From the NCBI GenBank assembly GCA_938035125.1, contig CALHNS010000092.1, positions 1 through 36,579 on the forward strand: 36,579 nt of DNA. The letters are read 5' to 3'. A program made the translations under genes and the position numbers. The notes beneath the pieces were generated by a model. It was not told where the DNA came from. It ran no database searches and saw only the letters and a list, made by a program, of their open reading frames with translations. This DNA comes from an uncultured Granulosicoccaceae bacterium (lineage in GTDB: Bacteria; Pseudomonadota; Gammaproteobacteria; Granulosicoccales; Granulosicoccaceae). Positions 30,741 to 36,103 of this stretch are shown one piece after another (the first letter of the stretch is position 1; each line of letters begins with the position of its first letter).

Positions 30741-30794
30741 GTTAACTAGCCACTATCTCTTCATGCCCACATTCTAAGAATGTAAAAGATCAAA

Positions 30795-30846
30795 GCGATT
30801 CATTCCTTTTGCAAAGTTGAGCGATTCATTCCTTTTGCAAAGTTGA
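30795..30846. repeat. Perfect 26-bp tandem duplication upstream of the retron promoter
   Basis: Two identical 26-bp units (30795-30820 and 30821-30846) lie head to tail. Each contains the palindrome TTTGCAAA. The second unit ends within the TTGATTGATT stretch that may contain the -35 box of the ncRNA promoter. Confidence 0.95.
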
Positions 30847-30873
30847 TTGATTTTATTCAGTATTTCCCATAAT
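30843..30873 (+). promoter_or_regulatory. Candidate promoter of the retron ncRNA and RT
   Basis: A -10-like CATAAT is at 30868-30873, 8 nt before the first arm of the msr-msd (30882). TTGATT occurs at 30843-30848 (19-nt spacer) and 30847-30852 (15-nt spacer), neither ideal. Initiation about 7 nt after the -10 would place the RNA 5' end almost at the start of a1, as expected for a retron. Confidence 0.45.
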
Positions 30874-30880
30874 GTTCCGT

Positions 30881-31025
30881 TGCGGCACTCTGGATTCGTC
30901 AGCACTATATATTTTGCTGGGCTTTGGGGTTACCCCAAGGCAGGGTATTGCTTTCATTACACTGCAGGAACGGCAATGCACTGCGTGCATGGGCGTTCAT
31001 GCGAATACTTGAGCAGAGTGCCGCG
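30881..31025 (+). ncRNA. Candidate retron msr-msd RNA
   Basis: Arms a1 and a2 are GCGGCACTCTG (30882-30892) and CAGAGTGCCGC (31014-31024), an 11-bp perfect inverted repeat, with a further T-G pair at 30881/31025. Inside, in order: hairpin 1, CAGCA (30900-30904) with TGCTG (30915-30919) and a 10-nt loop; hairpin 2, 30921-30929 with 30933-30941, 9 bp, 3-nt loop; and a long imperfect hairpin spanning 30943-31010, made of 30943-30949 with 31004-31010, 30964-30966 with 31000-31002, 30968-30972 with 30994-30998, and 30976-30981 with 30985-30990. The first two would be the msr, the long one the msd (a cDNA of about 65 nt). The branching guanosine is not assigned. The RT gene starts 22 nt after a2. 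Confidence 0.75.
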
Positions 31026-31046
31026 TATCAACCACGAATGTAAACA

Positions 31047-32330
31047 GTGAACAAACAAACGTTTTTTATAAAGCACCTTGCTCAATGGCTTTTCGAAGTA
31101 GACTGGCATTACAACACCTTGGTTGGGATTTCTATCGAGTGCACTAATGATTTCCCAAGTGACGGTAACGAACTCATTAACGAGCTGTTGCTGCGATATC
31201 CTGTTAAGCCCACTCAGAACTCGATTACCAACTTTTTACTCGAATCCGATCGGATAACAAACTGGTTCAAATTCAAAATAAATCGCCCCACAATAAAGCG
31301 ATTTTCTCTTAAGCCTAAACCCTCATCACTGATTGAAAAACCACTGCCAACTATTGATAGTGTGGGAGATTTAGCTGAATGGTTATCGTTATCCGTAAGC
31401 GAACTTGATTGGTTTACGCAATGTTGGCGTGAAGATGCCTTCTCTTCTGAGCACTTTAAGCACTACCGATACGATTTACTGGAAAAACGCAGCGGAGGAA
31501 TGCGTTTAATCGAAAAACCAAAAACAAAGTTGAAAAAGGTACAACATAAAATTTACCATGAAATTTTATGCACATTAAACACACATCCAGCAGCGCACGG
31601 ATTTTGTATCGGTAGAAATTGTGTTTCGCACGCATCAAATCATATCGGTAAACGATATTTGATGTCGTATGACATTGCGGACTGCTTTCACTCCATCAAT
31701 TGGCCATTAATAAAGGCTGTGTTCCTACGTCTAGGTTATACAACCGAGGTGGCAAGTTATTTAACAGCGCTGTGCACACACCGTGTTCAGTTGAATTACA
31801 AAACATGGCGCTTGTTTAATTCAGCCCAACAATCGCGTTTAAAACAACGGCACTTACCTCAAGGTGCGCCCACCTCGCCTGCTCTTGCCAATGCAGCACT
31901 GCATCGTCTAGATTTCAGGTTAGCCGGGTTAGCTAAAAAGTTGGACATGGATTATTCACGCTATGCAGACGATATTGCCTTATCAAGTAATACCCACCGT
32001 GATTGGCGTTTTTTAGAACCACTGATAGGCAGTATTTGTCTTGATGAGGGTATATCACTGAACTACAACAAAACGCGCATTAAACGAAGCCATCAAAAAC
32101 AGCGCTTGGTGGGCATAGTGGTGAACACTAAAACAAATATTGATCGACAGTATTTCGATTCACTTAAGGCTACGTTAATTAACTGCAAAAGGTATGGATT
32201 AGATAGCCAAAATCGTAACGGCCATGCACATTTTCGTGAACACTTGTATGGTCGTATTCAGTATGTTAAATCTCTGAACAAACAACGAGGTGAAAAATTA
32301 GAACGCATTTATCACGAAATTGATGTTTAA
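31047..32330 (+). CDS. Retron-type reverse transcriptase
   Basis: A 427-residue RNA-directed DNA polymerase. Residues about 140-165 (HYRYDLLEKRSGGMRLIEKPK) are the RT1-like region, HPAAHGFCIGRNCVSHASNHIGKRY (180-204) matches the conserved retron segment before motif A, and motif A has catalytic D209 (SYDIADCF). PQGAPTSPALAN (271-282) is motif B, and YADD (306-309) the catalytic core. LVG at 354-356 replaces the usual VTG of retron RTs. Residues 1-105 are an extension with no recognised domain. The C-terminal thumb (SLKATLINCKRYG, NGHAHFREHLYGRIQYVKSLN) is like a widespread family of bacterial RTs. GTG at 31047 lies 22 nt after the candidate a2 arm. No maturase, integrase or Cas1 domain is present. 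Confidence 0.88.
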   Translation: MNKQTFFIKHLAQWLFEVDWHYNTLVGISIECTNDFPSDGNELINELLLRYPVKPTQNSITNFLLESDRITNWFKFKINRPTIKRFSLKPKPSSLIEKPLPTIDSVGDLAEWLSLSVSELDWFTQCWREDAFSSEHFKHYRYDLLEKRSGGMRLIEKPKTKLKKVQHKIYHEILCTLNTHPAAHGFCIGRNCVSHASNHIGKRYLMSYDIADCFHSINWPLIKAVFLRLGYTTEVASYLTALCTHRVQLNYKTWRLFNSAQQSRLKQRHLPQGAPTSPALANAALHRLDFRLAGLAKKLDMDYSRYADDIALSSNTHRDWRFLEPLIGSICLDEGISLNYNKTRIKRSHQKQRLVGIVVNTKTNIDRQYFDSLKATLINCKRYGLDSQNRNGHAHFREHLYGRIQYVKSLNKQRGEKLERIYHEIDV

Positions 32331-32410: not shown

Positions 32411-34132
32411 ATGCAAAACATCCACTATCGTTCAATCATTGAAGGATCCGCCAAAGGCGAGCTGCTGGTGTGTAACACTGGCTTAAGTTTTTGGGGCGGG
32501 GTTAATCCTAATAATGGGCTCATTATTGATAAGCACCATCCGTTAACTGATCATTCAGTAGATGGAAAAATACTGGCTCTACCCAGCGGAAGAGGCTCAA
32601 GCTCTGGTAGCGGTGTGATACTAGAATTATTACTCAATGATATTGCACCGGCCGCACTAATTTTTACAGAAACCGAAGACATACTTACTTTAGGTGTCAT
32701 GGTTGCAGAGGTTATGTTCAATAAAAGTATTCCAGTTTGCCGCATTAGTACCCAAGATTTCAGCTTATTAACCACAGGGGATACAGTTAAACTAAGTAAG
32801 GGCATCATTGGCAAAGATCATAACTTCGCACCAGATGAGAATGATGAACCAATCAAGCACACTCAATCAGCTTTAAATCTTACAAACGAAGATCAACAAT
32901 TACTGGATGGAACAAGCGGCAAAGCAGCACAGCTTGCCATGCAAATCGTTGTTCGCATGGCAGAAATACAAGGTGCGGAACAGTTAATAGATGTTGAACA
33001 AGCGCATATTGATGCCTGTGTTTACAACGGTCCATCCAGTTTGCTGTTTGCACAAAAACTTGTTGCACTGGGTGGGCATGTCAAAATTCCCACTACGCTC
33101 AATTCCCTTTCGGTGGATAAGCGTCGTTGGCAACAACAAGGGGTAAGCCATGAATTTGGTACACCGGCAAGCCAACTAGGAGATGCATACTTAGCCATCG
33201 GCGCAAAACCAAGCTATACCTGCGCACCTTATCTGCTCGATACAGCGCCCACTTTGGGTCAACAAATCGTTTGGGCAGAATCTAATGCGGTTACCTTCGC
33301 CAACAGTGTGATAGGTGCTAGAACACGAAAATACCCTGACTTCTTGGATGCTTGCATTGCACTTACCGCAAGAGCACCCGCAGGTGGTGCTCATTCTGAT
33401 GCAGGACGAGCACCAACGCTTAAAATTACAGTAAGCGATATCAACAAACAATCGATTGATGATTCGTTTTGGCCCCTATTGGGTTATCACATTGGCACGA
33501 TGAGTAAGAATGACATCCCTATCGTATTCGGTTTAGAACAGTTCTCGCCCACACTAGATAACCACAAAGCGTTTAGTGCAGCATTCGCAACCACCTCTTC
33601 CGTGCCGATTTATCACATTAACAACGTTACACCCGAAGCTAACGCTATGGCGAAATCATTGCCTTCTTCAGTTGCAACAATTGATGTGGGGCCCGCTGAT
33701 TTACGCGCAAGTTGGGATGAATTGAACAGCGCTAAAACTGAGCAAGTCGATGCGGTGTGTTTAGGTAACCCGCATTTTTCGACTACTGAGTGTGCCAATT
33801 TGGCTGAGCTTTGCGAAGGTAGGCATAAACACCCAAACGTAAGCGTTATCGTTACGTTGGGTAGGGATATTTACGATAAGGCCGCTGCTGCTGGGACCAT
33901 TGAAAAATTAGAATCGTTTGGGGTTAACATTATTAATGACACCTGTTGGTGCATGATTGAAGAGCCTATTATTCCTGAGGATGCGACAACACTCATGACT
34001 AATTCAGGAAAATATGCACACTACGGCCCAGGATTGGTTAATCGATCTATGCATTTTGGCAGCCTAGCTCAATGCGTAGAAGCGGCATGCACTGGAATAC
34101 ACAAGCTGCGTGATATTGAGTACATTAATTAA
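32411..34132 (+). CDS. Aconitase X, fused small (swivel) and large domains
   Basis: A 573-residue AcnX-family hydro-lyase. Residues about 1-140 are the DUF126 swivel domain (GKILALPSGRGSSSGSGVILELL, and PAALIFTETEDILTLGVMVAEV). The catalytic DUF521 domain follows: VYNGPSSLLFAQKLVALGGHVKIPTTLNSLSVD, KPSYTCAPYLL, ESNAVTFANSVIGARTRKYPDFLDACIALTARAP, CLGNPHFSTTE and DTCWCMIEE, with cysteines that could hold the metal or iron-sulfur site, ending TNSGKYAHYGPGLVNRS. Characterised bacterial members dehydrate cis-3-hydroxy-L-proline; archaeal ones act on phosphomevalonate. No proline-pathway partner is nearby. It starts 80 nt after the RT stop and looks metabolic, so it is unlikely to be a retron effector. 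Confidence 0.9.
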   Translation: MQNIHYRSIIEGSAKGELLVCNTGLSFWGGVNPNNGLIIDKHHPLTDHSVDGKILALPSGRGSSSGSGVILELLLNDIAPAALIFTETEDILTLGVMVAEVMFNKSIPVCRISTQDFSLLTTGDTVKLSKGIIGKDHNFAPDENDEPIKHTQSALNLTNEDQQLLDGTSGKAAQLAMQIVVRMAEIQGAEQLIDVEQAHIDACVYNGPSSLLFAQKLVALGGHVKIPTTLNSLSVDKRRWQQQGVSHEFGTPASQLGDAYLAIGAKPSYTCAPYLLDTAPTLGQQIVWAESNAVTFANSVIGARTRKYPDFLDACIALTARAPAGGAHSDAGRAPTLKITVSDINKQSIDDSFWPLLGYHIGTMSKNDIPIVFGLEQFSPTLDNHKAFSAAFATTSSVPIYHINNVTPEANAMAKSLPSSVATIDVGPADLRASWDELNSAKTEQVDAVCLGNPHFSTTECANLAELCEGRHKHPNVSVIVTLGRDIYDKAAAAGTIEKLESFGVNIINDTCWCMIEEPIIPEDATTLMTNSGKYAHYGPGLVNRSMHFGSLAQCVEAACTGIHKLRDIEYIN

Positions 34133-34276: not shown

Positions 34277-36103
34277 ATGAAAATTCATAATCTAACCGCT
34301 GCCAAAAATAACAACCCTATTCAATGCAGCAACCGTTCAGTCTTGCTCAAATCCCTTGTTGGGTTAGCGGTTTGTGCCGCTCTATCTTCAACTGCGAATG
34401 CAGCCGTATTCAATGTTTCTGATGCTGACAGCTTGAACACAGCATTAGCAACTGTTAACAGCAATGGCGCTGATGACGTAATCGATCTCCAGGGCAACAC
34501 CATTAGGCTGAATGACACGATATCGATTGTTGGTGATTCAAACTCTATTACTTTTCAAAACGGTACACTCGAACGCGTTTCTTCTGCCAATCCTTTTCAA
34601 CTAGTTAACATTGGTGGTAGTAGGAATGACGCAATAATCATCATGGACAACATGACCTTTATTGGTGGACTTGCGACCGCGAGTGACAATGAAACTAACG
34701 ATAGCCGAGGTGGTGGCGCAATATTCAGCTCTCGAGAATTGGAACTGACGAATGTAATCTTCAGAGATAATCAAGTGATGGGTAATGGTGCAGGCGGTGC
34801 GATAAACAGTACTGCCAAAGTAACCATAAAGAACGGAGAATTCAGAAATAACGTAGCCGAAGCCAATGATCTTGGTGAAACACGTGGCGGTGCTATAGAT
34901 ATAAGAGGTGCTAATGGCGTCATGCTCACCATTGAAAATTCAATTTTCACTGGTAATAAAGCTGGCCGCGGTGGCGCAATCTTTACTGATGTTTCAACTA
35001 GGGGCCTCAGGATCGAAGACTCTTTCTTCGCCGACAATGAGGCCACGGTTTCATTGGGCGGTGCAGTCTGGGCAGGTGTTTCCAGTGGTAATCCGATTGA
35101 AGTGGAAAATAGCACCTTTTTACGTAACAACGCACAAGTAGTTGGTGGAGCTTTCTACACGCAGGCAAACACCTCAATCAATTTTAATCACGTAACCTTC
35201 GCTTCTAACACAGCAGGTTCGGACGGCTTTGGACAAGGAAGCGCGATTAGGGCTGCAGGTACACAAACAAGCTTTACAATGAACAACTCGCTCATTGCAG
35301 ATACCGCTGGCGATATATGCTTATTAGATAATCCTGCCACTCTTTCAGGTGCAGGAAACTTGCTGAGTGATAATTCCTGTGGCGGTGCGCTTACGCTAGG
35401 GGGTTCTGAGCCATTAACACCACAAGAAATCAATGGATTATTTTTAGAAAATGTACAGTCCATAGCTGGCCCTCTTGCAAAACTCAGCCCCGGCTCAGTG
35501 GCAATCGACAATGCTGACACGGCAACCTGTGCAATGACGGACCAACGCGGAGTGGCACGACCAGATGGCATGTTAGTGCCTAATGCGCTGGCTAACTGTG
35601 ATGTAGGTTCTTTCGAGCTTATGCCGCCTCCAATTTGCGATGGTTTGGAAGCAACGGTATATGTTCAATACGGAATTGTCGTCGGTGGCCGCAACAATGG
35701 CCGACCTTATTTACCTAACAGCAATGGCGTGTATCGATTAAGAGGTACTTCTGGTGACGATGTTATTTATGGCACTAATAGAGGCGAGATAATCGCAGCA
35801 TTCGATGGTGACGACGTAATCTGCTCCTTAGATGGTGACGACATGATCACTGGTGGTGCAGGCGACGACATTGTCTTTGCAGGAGCCGGAGAAGATATAG
35901 TGGTAGCTGGCCAAGGTAACGACACAGTATTTGGATCGACTGGTAACGACACTCTTCGCGGTGGCCCTGGAAACGACATACTAATAGGTGAAGCAGGCGA
36001 CGACACACTGACTCCAGGTGGCGGCATTGATGAAGCTGATGGCGGTACAGGTATTAATGAATGCCTACGAGCAGAAACCGCAACAAACTGTGCGAGTGAA
36101 TAG
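34277..36103 (+). CDS. Secreted beta-helix protein with C-terminal RTX calcium-binding repeats
   Basis: A 608-residue protein. An extended signal peptide of about 42 residues ends in ALSSTANA. Residues about 43-450 form a right-handed beta-helix of the choice-of-anchor Q/polymorphic outer membrane type, with repeated GGAI..., N.F..N.A motifs (RGGGAIFSSRELELTNVIFRDN, GRGGAIFTDVS, LGGAVWAGVS) and end in the typical TDQRGVARPDG...CDVGSFE. Residues about 493-595 contain RTX-like nonapeptides (GGAGDDIVF, GNDTVFGSTGNDTLRGGPGNDILIGEAGDDTL), which bind calcium. GGAGG precedes the ATG. An N-terminal Sec signal together with C-terminal RTX repeats leaves the export route unclear. Possibly a surface adhesin. 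A strong terminator follows. Confidence 0.85.
   Translation: MKIHNLTAAKNNNPIQCSNRSVLLKSLVGLAVCAALSSTANAAVFNVSDADSLNTALATVNSNGADDVIDLQGNTIRLNDTISIVGDSNSITFQNGTLERVSSANPFQLVNIGGSRNDAIIIMDNMTFIGGLATASDNETNDSRGGGAIFSSRELELTNVIFRDNQVMGNGAGGAINSTAKVTIKNGEFRNNVAEANDLGETRGGAIDIRGANGVMLTIENSIFTGNKAGRGGAIFTDVSTRGLRIEDSFFADNEATVSLGGAVWAGVSSGNPIEVENSTFLRNNAQVVGGAFYTQANTSINFNHVTFASNTAGSDGFGQGSAIRAAGTQTSFTMNNSLIADTAGDICLLDNPATLSGAGNLLSDNSCGGALTLGGSEPLTPQEINGLFLENVQSIAGPLAKLSPGSVAIDNADTATCAMTDQRGVARPDGMLVPNALANCDVGSFELMPPPICDGLEATVYVQYGIVVGGRNNGRPYLPNSNGVYRLRGTSGDDVIYGTNRGEIIAAFDGDDVICSLDGDDMITGGAGDDIVFAGAGEDIVVAGQGNDTVFGSTGNDTLRGGPGNDILIGEAGDDTLTPGGGIDEADGGTGINECLRAETATNCASE

Follow-up and report, generated by a model that had tools for sequence, protein, structure and literature searches.

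A unit of about 1.5 kb in the 36,579-nucleotide window (the whole stretch of DNA analysed) is very likely a retron, consisting of a promoter, a noncoding RNA (ncRNA) built of a1, two msr hairpins, a linker, an msd hairpin and a2, and a reverse transcriptase (RT) gene (Table 1). Promoter, ncRNA and RT probably form one transcription unit. The RT belongs to a retron lineage, a1 and a2 surround the msr and msd hairpins ahead of it, and a G lies inside a1, as in retrons. A candidate msr-msd at this place had been proposed in a preliminary description made from the letters of the DNA, and the order of the parts, the unpaired G after a1, the class of the RT and the co-occurrence of RNA and RT all support that reading.

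Table 1. Features of the candidate retron, with positions in the window
Feature	Position	Strand	Remarks
Predicted promoter, TTGATT-N17-TAATGT	30847..30875	+	Ends 6 nt before a1
a1 arm	30882..30892	+	Perfect complement of 31014-31024; 6 of 11 pairs changed on both sides in 10 loci
Candidate branching (priming) guanosine	30893	+	Unpaired, directly 3' of a1; putative role
msr hairpin 1	30899..30920	+	6 of 8 pairs changed on both sides; 90% of cells paired
msr hairpin 2	30921..30941	+	9-bp stem, GGGG-NTA-CCCC tip; 100% of cells paired
Conserved linker	30942..30963	+	Sequence conservation; 3' end of the cDNA expected inside
msd hairpin	30964..31002	+	Lower stem, internal loop, 6-bp apical stem, TGC tip; 100% of cells paired in 10 loci
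Unpaired msd tail	31003..31013	+	Adjoins a2; 5' end of the cDNA expected opposite 31013, by analogy with known retrons
a2 arm	31014..31024	+	As for a1
Retron-class RT, 427 aa, GTG start at 31047	31047..32330	+	RVT_1 at residues 146-357

The arm at 30882-30892, GCGGCACTCTG, is the exact reverse complement of 31014-31024, the next outer bases being T and G and the next inner ones G and G. We could confirm the coordinates given earlier for the arms, for the two compact hairpins and the long imperfect one, and for the 22 nt between the end of the repeat and the RT start. The accompanying estimate that such a match would arise by chance less than once in 100 holds for the local stretch, where arms of at least 11 bp occurred in 1 of 2,000 dinucleotide shuffles of 30860-31046, but not for the whole window, where one 11-bp pair (loop 90-180) was observed against a mean of 1.4 in 20 shuffled windows. 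Taken alone, the repeat is weak evidence and not significant window-wide, and since it is ordinary at the 36.6-kb scale, other support is required. The fold of 30870-31046 was more stable than its shuffles (z -3.39), 2 of 200 of which were equally good. Rfam gave no family at its cut-off over the whole window and, at E up to 5 over 30820-31060, a single microRNA match far below cut-off.

We aligned 10 RNAs of the family over the whole element, that of the window among them and G060 left out. The 40-pair structure was paired in 97.3% of cells, with 14 pairs changed on both sides (6.7 in shuffled and 1 to 4 in slid controls) and 30 such cells (9.4 shuffled, 2 to 7 slid). These double changes fell on 6 of the 11 a1/a2 pairs, so that conservation of the arms upstream of close RT homologues, the test named in the preliminary description, was borne out; they also fell on 6 of 8 pairs in hairpin 1, on 1 of 9 in hairpin 2 and on 1 of 12 in the msd hairpin, whose stem is nearly invariant within the family, which thus says little there. 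With four distant loci added, in an alignment fitted to the model, double changes rose to 28 of 40 pairs and 83 cells, including 7 of 12 msd pairs. Covariation together with conservation among relatives indicates that the folded RNA is genuine.

Covariance model R1 recovered the held-out G060 at 171.6 bits and, outside the family, found L038, L046, L048 and L025 at E values of 1e-9 to 3e-5 and L024 at 0.039, while missing L026 and L047, the latter a near twin of L048; in one search L024, L026, L079 and L080 did not reach the threshold of E 0.0003. A wider model, R2, built from 14 rows without Actinomycetota, found the RNA in Tsukamurella (L026) at E 0.0014 and in Dietzia (L079) at E 0.0019, with gaps of 5 and 10 nt, respectively, to the RT; these E values are modest, and E values of covariance models are rough. 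R2 also matched L024, L080 and L081 (the place of L047) at E below 1e-15, close kin of all three being in its training set. At 14 loci of other RTs (L007, L016, L040-L044, L049-L051 and L075-L078, with L007 and L042 being one place), R2 returned nothing at E up to 1. Further R2 matches in L024 at E 0.4-0.7 were taken as chance. A purely accidental origin of arms and hairpins would agree with the 1.4 pairs expected at such spacing per shuffled window, but is made extremely improbable by the covariation, by the R2 matches in relatives and by the co-occurrence of RNA and RT described below.

All 10 aligned family loci have a G at the position of G30893, as do 13 of the 14 rows in the wide alignment. 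It lies one pair further in at L038, and at L046 an earlier G was read than the model-aligned one. Its context in the window is TGG, compared with the nAGC usual around retron branching guanosines (PMC6868368), and AAGC was read in Burkholderia, L038, L046 and L006. Tips resembling that of hairpin 2 read CTA in Burkholderia, TAA in L038 and Tsukamurella, TAT in L047 and CAA in Dietzia. From what is described for retron region Y (PMC6868368), hairpin 2 is perhaps the hairpin recognized by the RT.

The predicted promoter recurs in the family, TTGA(TT/CC)-N17-TA...T lying 0 to 2 nt ahead of the model start in all 11 loci, and given this position transcription would be expected to begin at a1. Among nine more distant loci, one had the strict form, three a looser form and five neither. 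The predicted -10 is a weak match to the consensus, and the promoter is absent from the listing of a generic promoter scan. Just before the predicted -35 ends a perfect 26-bp tandem duplication (30794-30845, two copies of AGCGATTCATTCCTTTTGCAAAGTTG), which was not seen in the upstream stretch of L003. Being directly before the start codon and in the same direction, and containing a weak terminator-like site listed by the scan at 30931-30947, the RNA might act as a cis-acting leader that controls RT expression and is not a template. Across the 12 loci measured, between 5 and 52 nt separate the 3' end of the model from the RT start. This variation argues against a leader, as does the architecture, which fits an msr-msd, and we regard a leader as very improbable.

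The RT matched Pfam RVT_1 at 8.4e-24 and, over nearly its full length, the PADLOC models RT_other (PDLC02949; 1.3e-125, residues 8-426) and RT_outgroup (PDLC03740, labelled retron; 1.5e-119, residues 16-426). Since these matches cover the N-terminal part, that part belongs to the class. Its approximately 130 residues had no Pfam match, and the first 127 reached an E value of only 1.4 against solved chains. L003, L020, L025, L026 and L047 likewise had RT_other and RT_outgroup as their two best models. The NCBIfam model for the retron St85 RT scored 182 bits, below its cut-off of 235. A YADD motif is present, region X reads HASNH in place of the retron NAXXH, and the place of VTG, where region Y opens, reads LVG. 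Relatives have VVG, IVG, LTG, LAG (as in L026) or VTG there, the G being kept in 10 of 10 aligned RTs. Variants of both regions are already known (PMC4244168): 2 of 16 verified retrons differ at the region X asparagine (PMC6868368), and a survey found this residue conserved in 62% of cases and VTG present in 47% of sequences (PMC4244168). The dN/dS ratio was 0.09 for the window against L003 or L004 and 0.11 for L019/L020, at dS values of 1.35-2.63 that are high or saturated; closer pairs gave 0.21-0.24 (three Burkholderia pairs) and 0.25 (L047/L048). Judged by these low ratios, the RT is under purifying selection and kept functional.

Of 48 genomes in the order, 11 (the window's own included) contained the RT at an E value of 1e-40 or lower, and R1, run here with stricter filters than in the other R1 search, found the RNA in the same 11, each time directly upstream of the RT. 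Eight other long RT copies, L005 among them, were 58-71% identical to that of the window, and contig ends truncate those of G001 and G060. L001 and L003, which lie at the same place, were counted once, and L004, L019, L021, L022 and L023, on the minus strand, were read turned. A weak antisense R1 match in G057 and antisense matches to parts of hairpins were taken as palindrome shadows.

In a tree of 29 RT rows, 16 rows (eight of the family, three Burkholderia, L038, L047, L048, Tsukamurella and Dietzia) separated as a clade, with 100/100 support, from the remaining 13. The tree does not include L005 and L046, which have in-frame stops, the partial sequences L006, L015 and L023, L008, in which no frame was usable, or L076. 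The region X asparagine is absent from all 16 clade rows, whereas NAXXH occurs in 12 of the 13 others, the 13th (L016) being unmatched by the pattern. Beside each of the 16 clade rows, most of which had served to train one model or the other, R1 or R2 placed the RNA with an E value no higher than 0.002, and it was not found beside the 13 non-clade RTs by R1 (10 of 13 searched) or R2 (13 of 13). By this comparison among loci, the RNA is shown to be kept by compensatory change and tied to the RT lineage of the window. More widely, RT_outgroup at E 1e-60 was found in 7 of 274 genomes of the class, the window's included (of these in the clade, only L038), and our own RT profile at E 1e-70 in 7 of 398 genomes of the phylum, the window's again included (clade members only L046, L047 and L048). 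We found no relative in viral_contigs, and only RTs below 60% identity in 27 phage and 146 plasmid records. The RT genes of L005 (near codon 13) and L046/L083 have an in-frame TGA, and the adjoining RNA still fits the model. In a sister group (L040, L042-L044 and L049-L051), the RTs are larger (515-698 aa) and have NAXXH and VTG, with a long N-terminal part in L040 and L042-L044 and a hydrophobic C-terminus in L040, L042 and L043; neither R1 nor R2 found the RNA at these loci.

The absence of the asparagine from the entire clade, the strict conservation of the msd tip within the family and the combination of RT and ncRNA without an effector, as reported for DRT2 and DRT9, would also suit an RNA that partners the RT as a scaffold or is otherwise primed, as in DRT systems, and is not a branched-primer template. 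The RT scores as a retron RT, and we rejected DRT membership, Drt2 and Drt3a reaching 36 and 27 bits against cut-offs of 390 and 200; moreover, a1 and a2 with a G at the inner end are a retron trait, and asparagine variants occur among verified retrons (PMC6868368). Such a DRT-like role is very unlikely, and a retron remains the preferred reading. Weighing against a retron are the HASNH and LVG motifs, the TGG context of the G, the loci that R1 missed or found only weakly, the modest E values in actinomycetes and the two RT genes with an in-frame TGA.

Among the 15 solved sequences matched, the closest was the RT of Retron-Eco1 (Ec86), at 1.5e-27 over residues 138-377; its 320-aa chain has no N-terminal part comparable to that of the window RT. 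Retron-Eco1 has its parts in the order of the window locus (a1, msr, msd, a2, RT) and carries an effector gene. It differs in having NAXXH and VTG (PMC12405507), where the window RT has HASNH and LVG. The extended RT N-terminus recalls, by description only, the myxobacterial Mx162, Mx65 and Sa163, of which Mx65 shows variation at the region X asparagine as well; the DNA of Mx162 measures 162 nt (PMC6868368), compared with 51-72 nt predicted for the window locus. Retron type XIII (RT_XIII) was the third-best RT model (2.8e-91), matching residues 90-425 only. Type XIII retrons have partner genes, and none was seen beside the window RT. We rejected membership of this type, RT_other and RT_outgroup scoring higher and the scanned neighbours in the window being metabolic or RTX-type.

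In known retrons, pairing of a1 with a2 puts the template next to the G, an msr hairpin is bound by region Y, and the RT, primed by the 2'-OH of this G, extends its copy in the direction of the msr (PMC6868368, PMC12405507). By analogy, a1 of the window RNA would pair with a2, the RT would bind an msr hairpin and prime on the 2'-OH of G30893, and copying would run from 31013 through the msd hairpin and stop in the linker (30942-30963). Trimming of the template by host RNase H would then leave a branched RNA-DNA molecule (msDNA) bound to the RT, with a DNA of about 51-72 nt, a bracket that includes the earlier estimate of about 65 nt. The RT-msDNA complex might be kept as a stand-alone unit and could conceivably act through the N-terminal part of the RT or through a protein encoded elsewhere.

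We compared stop-to-stop frames of at least 70 aa at 20 loci in two phyla and, among the matches listed, only the RT was common to all. The other frame matches listed were overlaps with RT or RNA, synteny between close relatives (L081/L082, L024/L080, and L031/L033, which have one gene in common with L032) or weak similarities (about 24-45% identity, in few loci and at differing places). Small frames seemingly shared beside the RT in L030, L031, L033 and L036 were discarded, since they overlap the RNA on the other strand. In a Pfam scan of 20 nearby ORFs, three overlapped the RNA (L029:1821-2165, L033:8238-8567 and L036:769-1167) and the remaining ones were of metabolic, regulatory or unknown type; the only kinds seen more than once were AHSA1 (L031, L032) and Beta-lactamase (L030, weakly L025). 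PADLOC gave no match in four window neighbours and a single weak desaturase-like match in 10 neighbours elsewhere. A linked effector, as in a tripartite defence retron, was thus not found at the 20 loci; by gene content the module is solitary, consisting of ncRNA and RT with no linked effector gene, a feature that the preliminary description does not mention, and a role in defence, as in other retrons, should not be taken for granted. The N-terminal part of the RT could be a fused effector.

Orphan retrons have been acknowledged in print (PMC8867640). The RT class of the window is already catalogued in PADLOC, and the effector-less lineage is the interesting part. RT_other and RT_outgroup are protein models only. 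Within the literature searched, in excerpts and outside Mestre 2020, we found no described ncRNA or effector for this class; nor was a description of the window ncRNA found there, Khan 2024, the Gonzalez-Delgado FEMS review and the PADLOC RNA models likewise lying outside the search. An orphan-retron lineage thereby gains a defined RNA, predicted ends and a testable RT part, together with a covariance model by which the RNA is located ahead of the RT in two phyla, and the function of orphan retrons becomes directly testable. One speculative extension, which we consider doubtful, is a two-part retron lineage of ncRNA and RT alone across Pseudomonadota and Actinomycetota, in which the RT-msDNA particle would do the work of effectors via the N-terminal part. 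Such a lineage would be marked by a region X that has lost its asparagine, a hairpin rich in G+C whose 3-nt tip is mostly NTA, an msd hairpin in two parts and an RT N-terminal part whose fold is unknown.

A retron in structure might also be selfish or neutral and do nothing for its host, which is compatible with the preferred reading. The sites differ between loci, close relatives excepted, distribution is patchy (11 of 48 genomes), and there is a single copy in the genome, all in line with a selfish element. On the other side, neither a mobility gene nor, in an unsystematic search, insertion ends came to light; purifying selection fits both readings. We hold a selfish or neutral retron to be possible, if on the unlikely side.

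An AHSA1-type gene lies upstream of the RT in L031, L032 and L033, all of one genus, and an ArsR-type regulator in L031 has its match in L033, hinting at common descent of the site in L031-L033, the other copies being at unrelated sites. In the window, the RT is flanked by genes for a SnoaL-like protein and a cis-3-hydroxy-L-proline dehydratase. Of 26 other genomes in the genus, 10 had a match to the downstream gene at E 1e-100, with identities of only 45-58%, and because of this low identity we dropped an empty-site comparison. The product of 32411-34132 is an Aconitase X family protein scoring above the NCBIfam cut-off for cis-3-hydroxy-L-proline dehydratase, and 34277-36103, two genes after the RT, encodes a protein of 608 aa that combines calcium-binding repeats of the RTX type with a choice-of-anchor Q domain.
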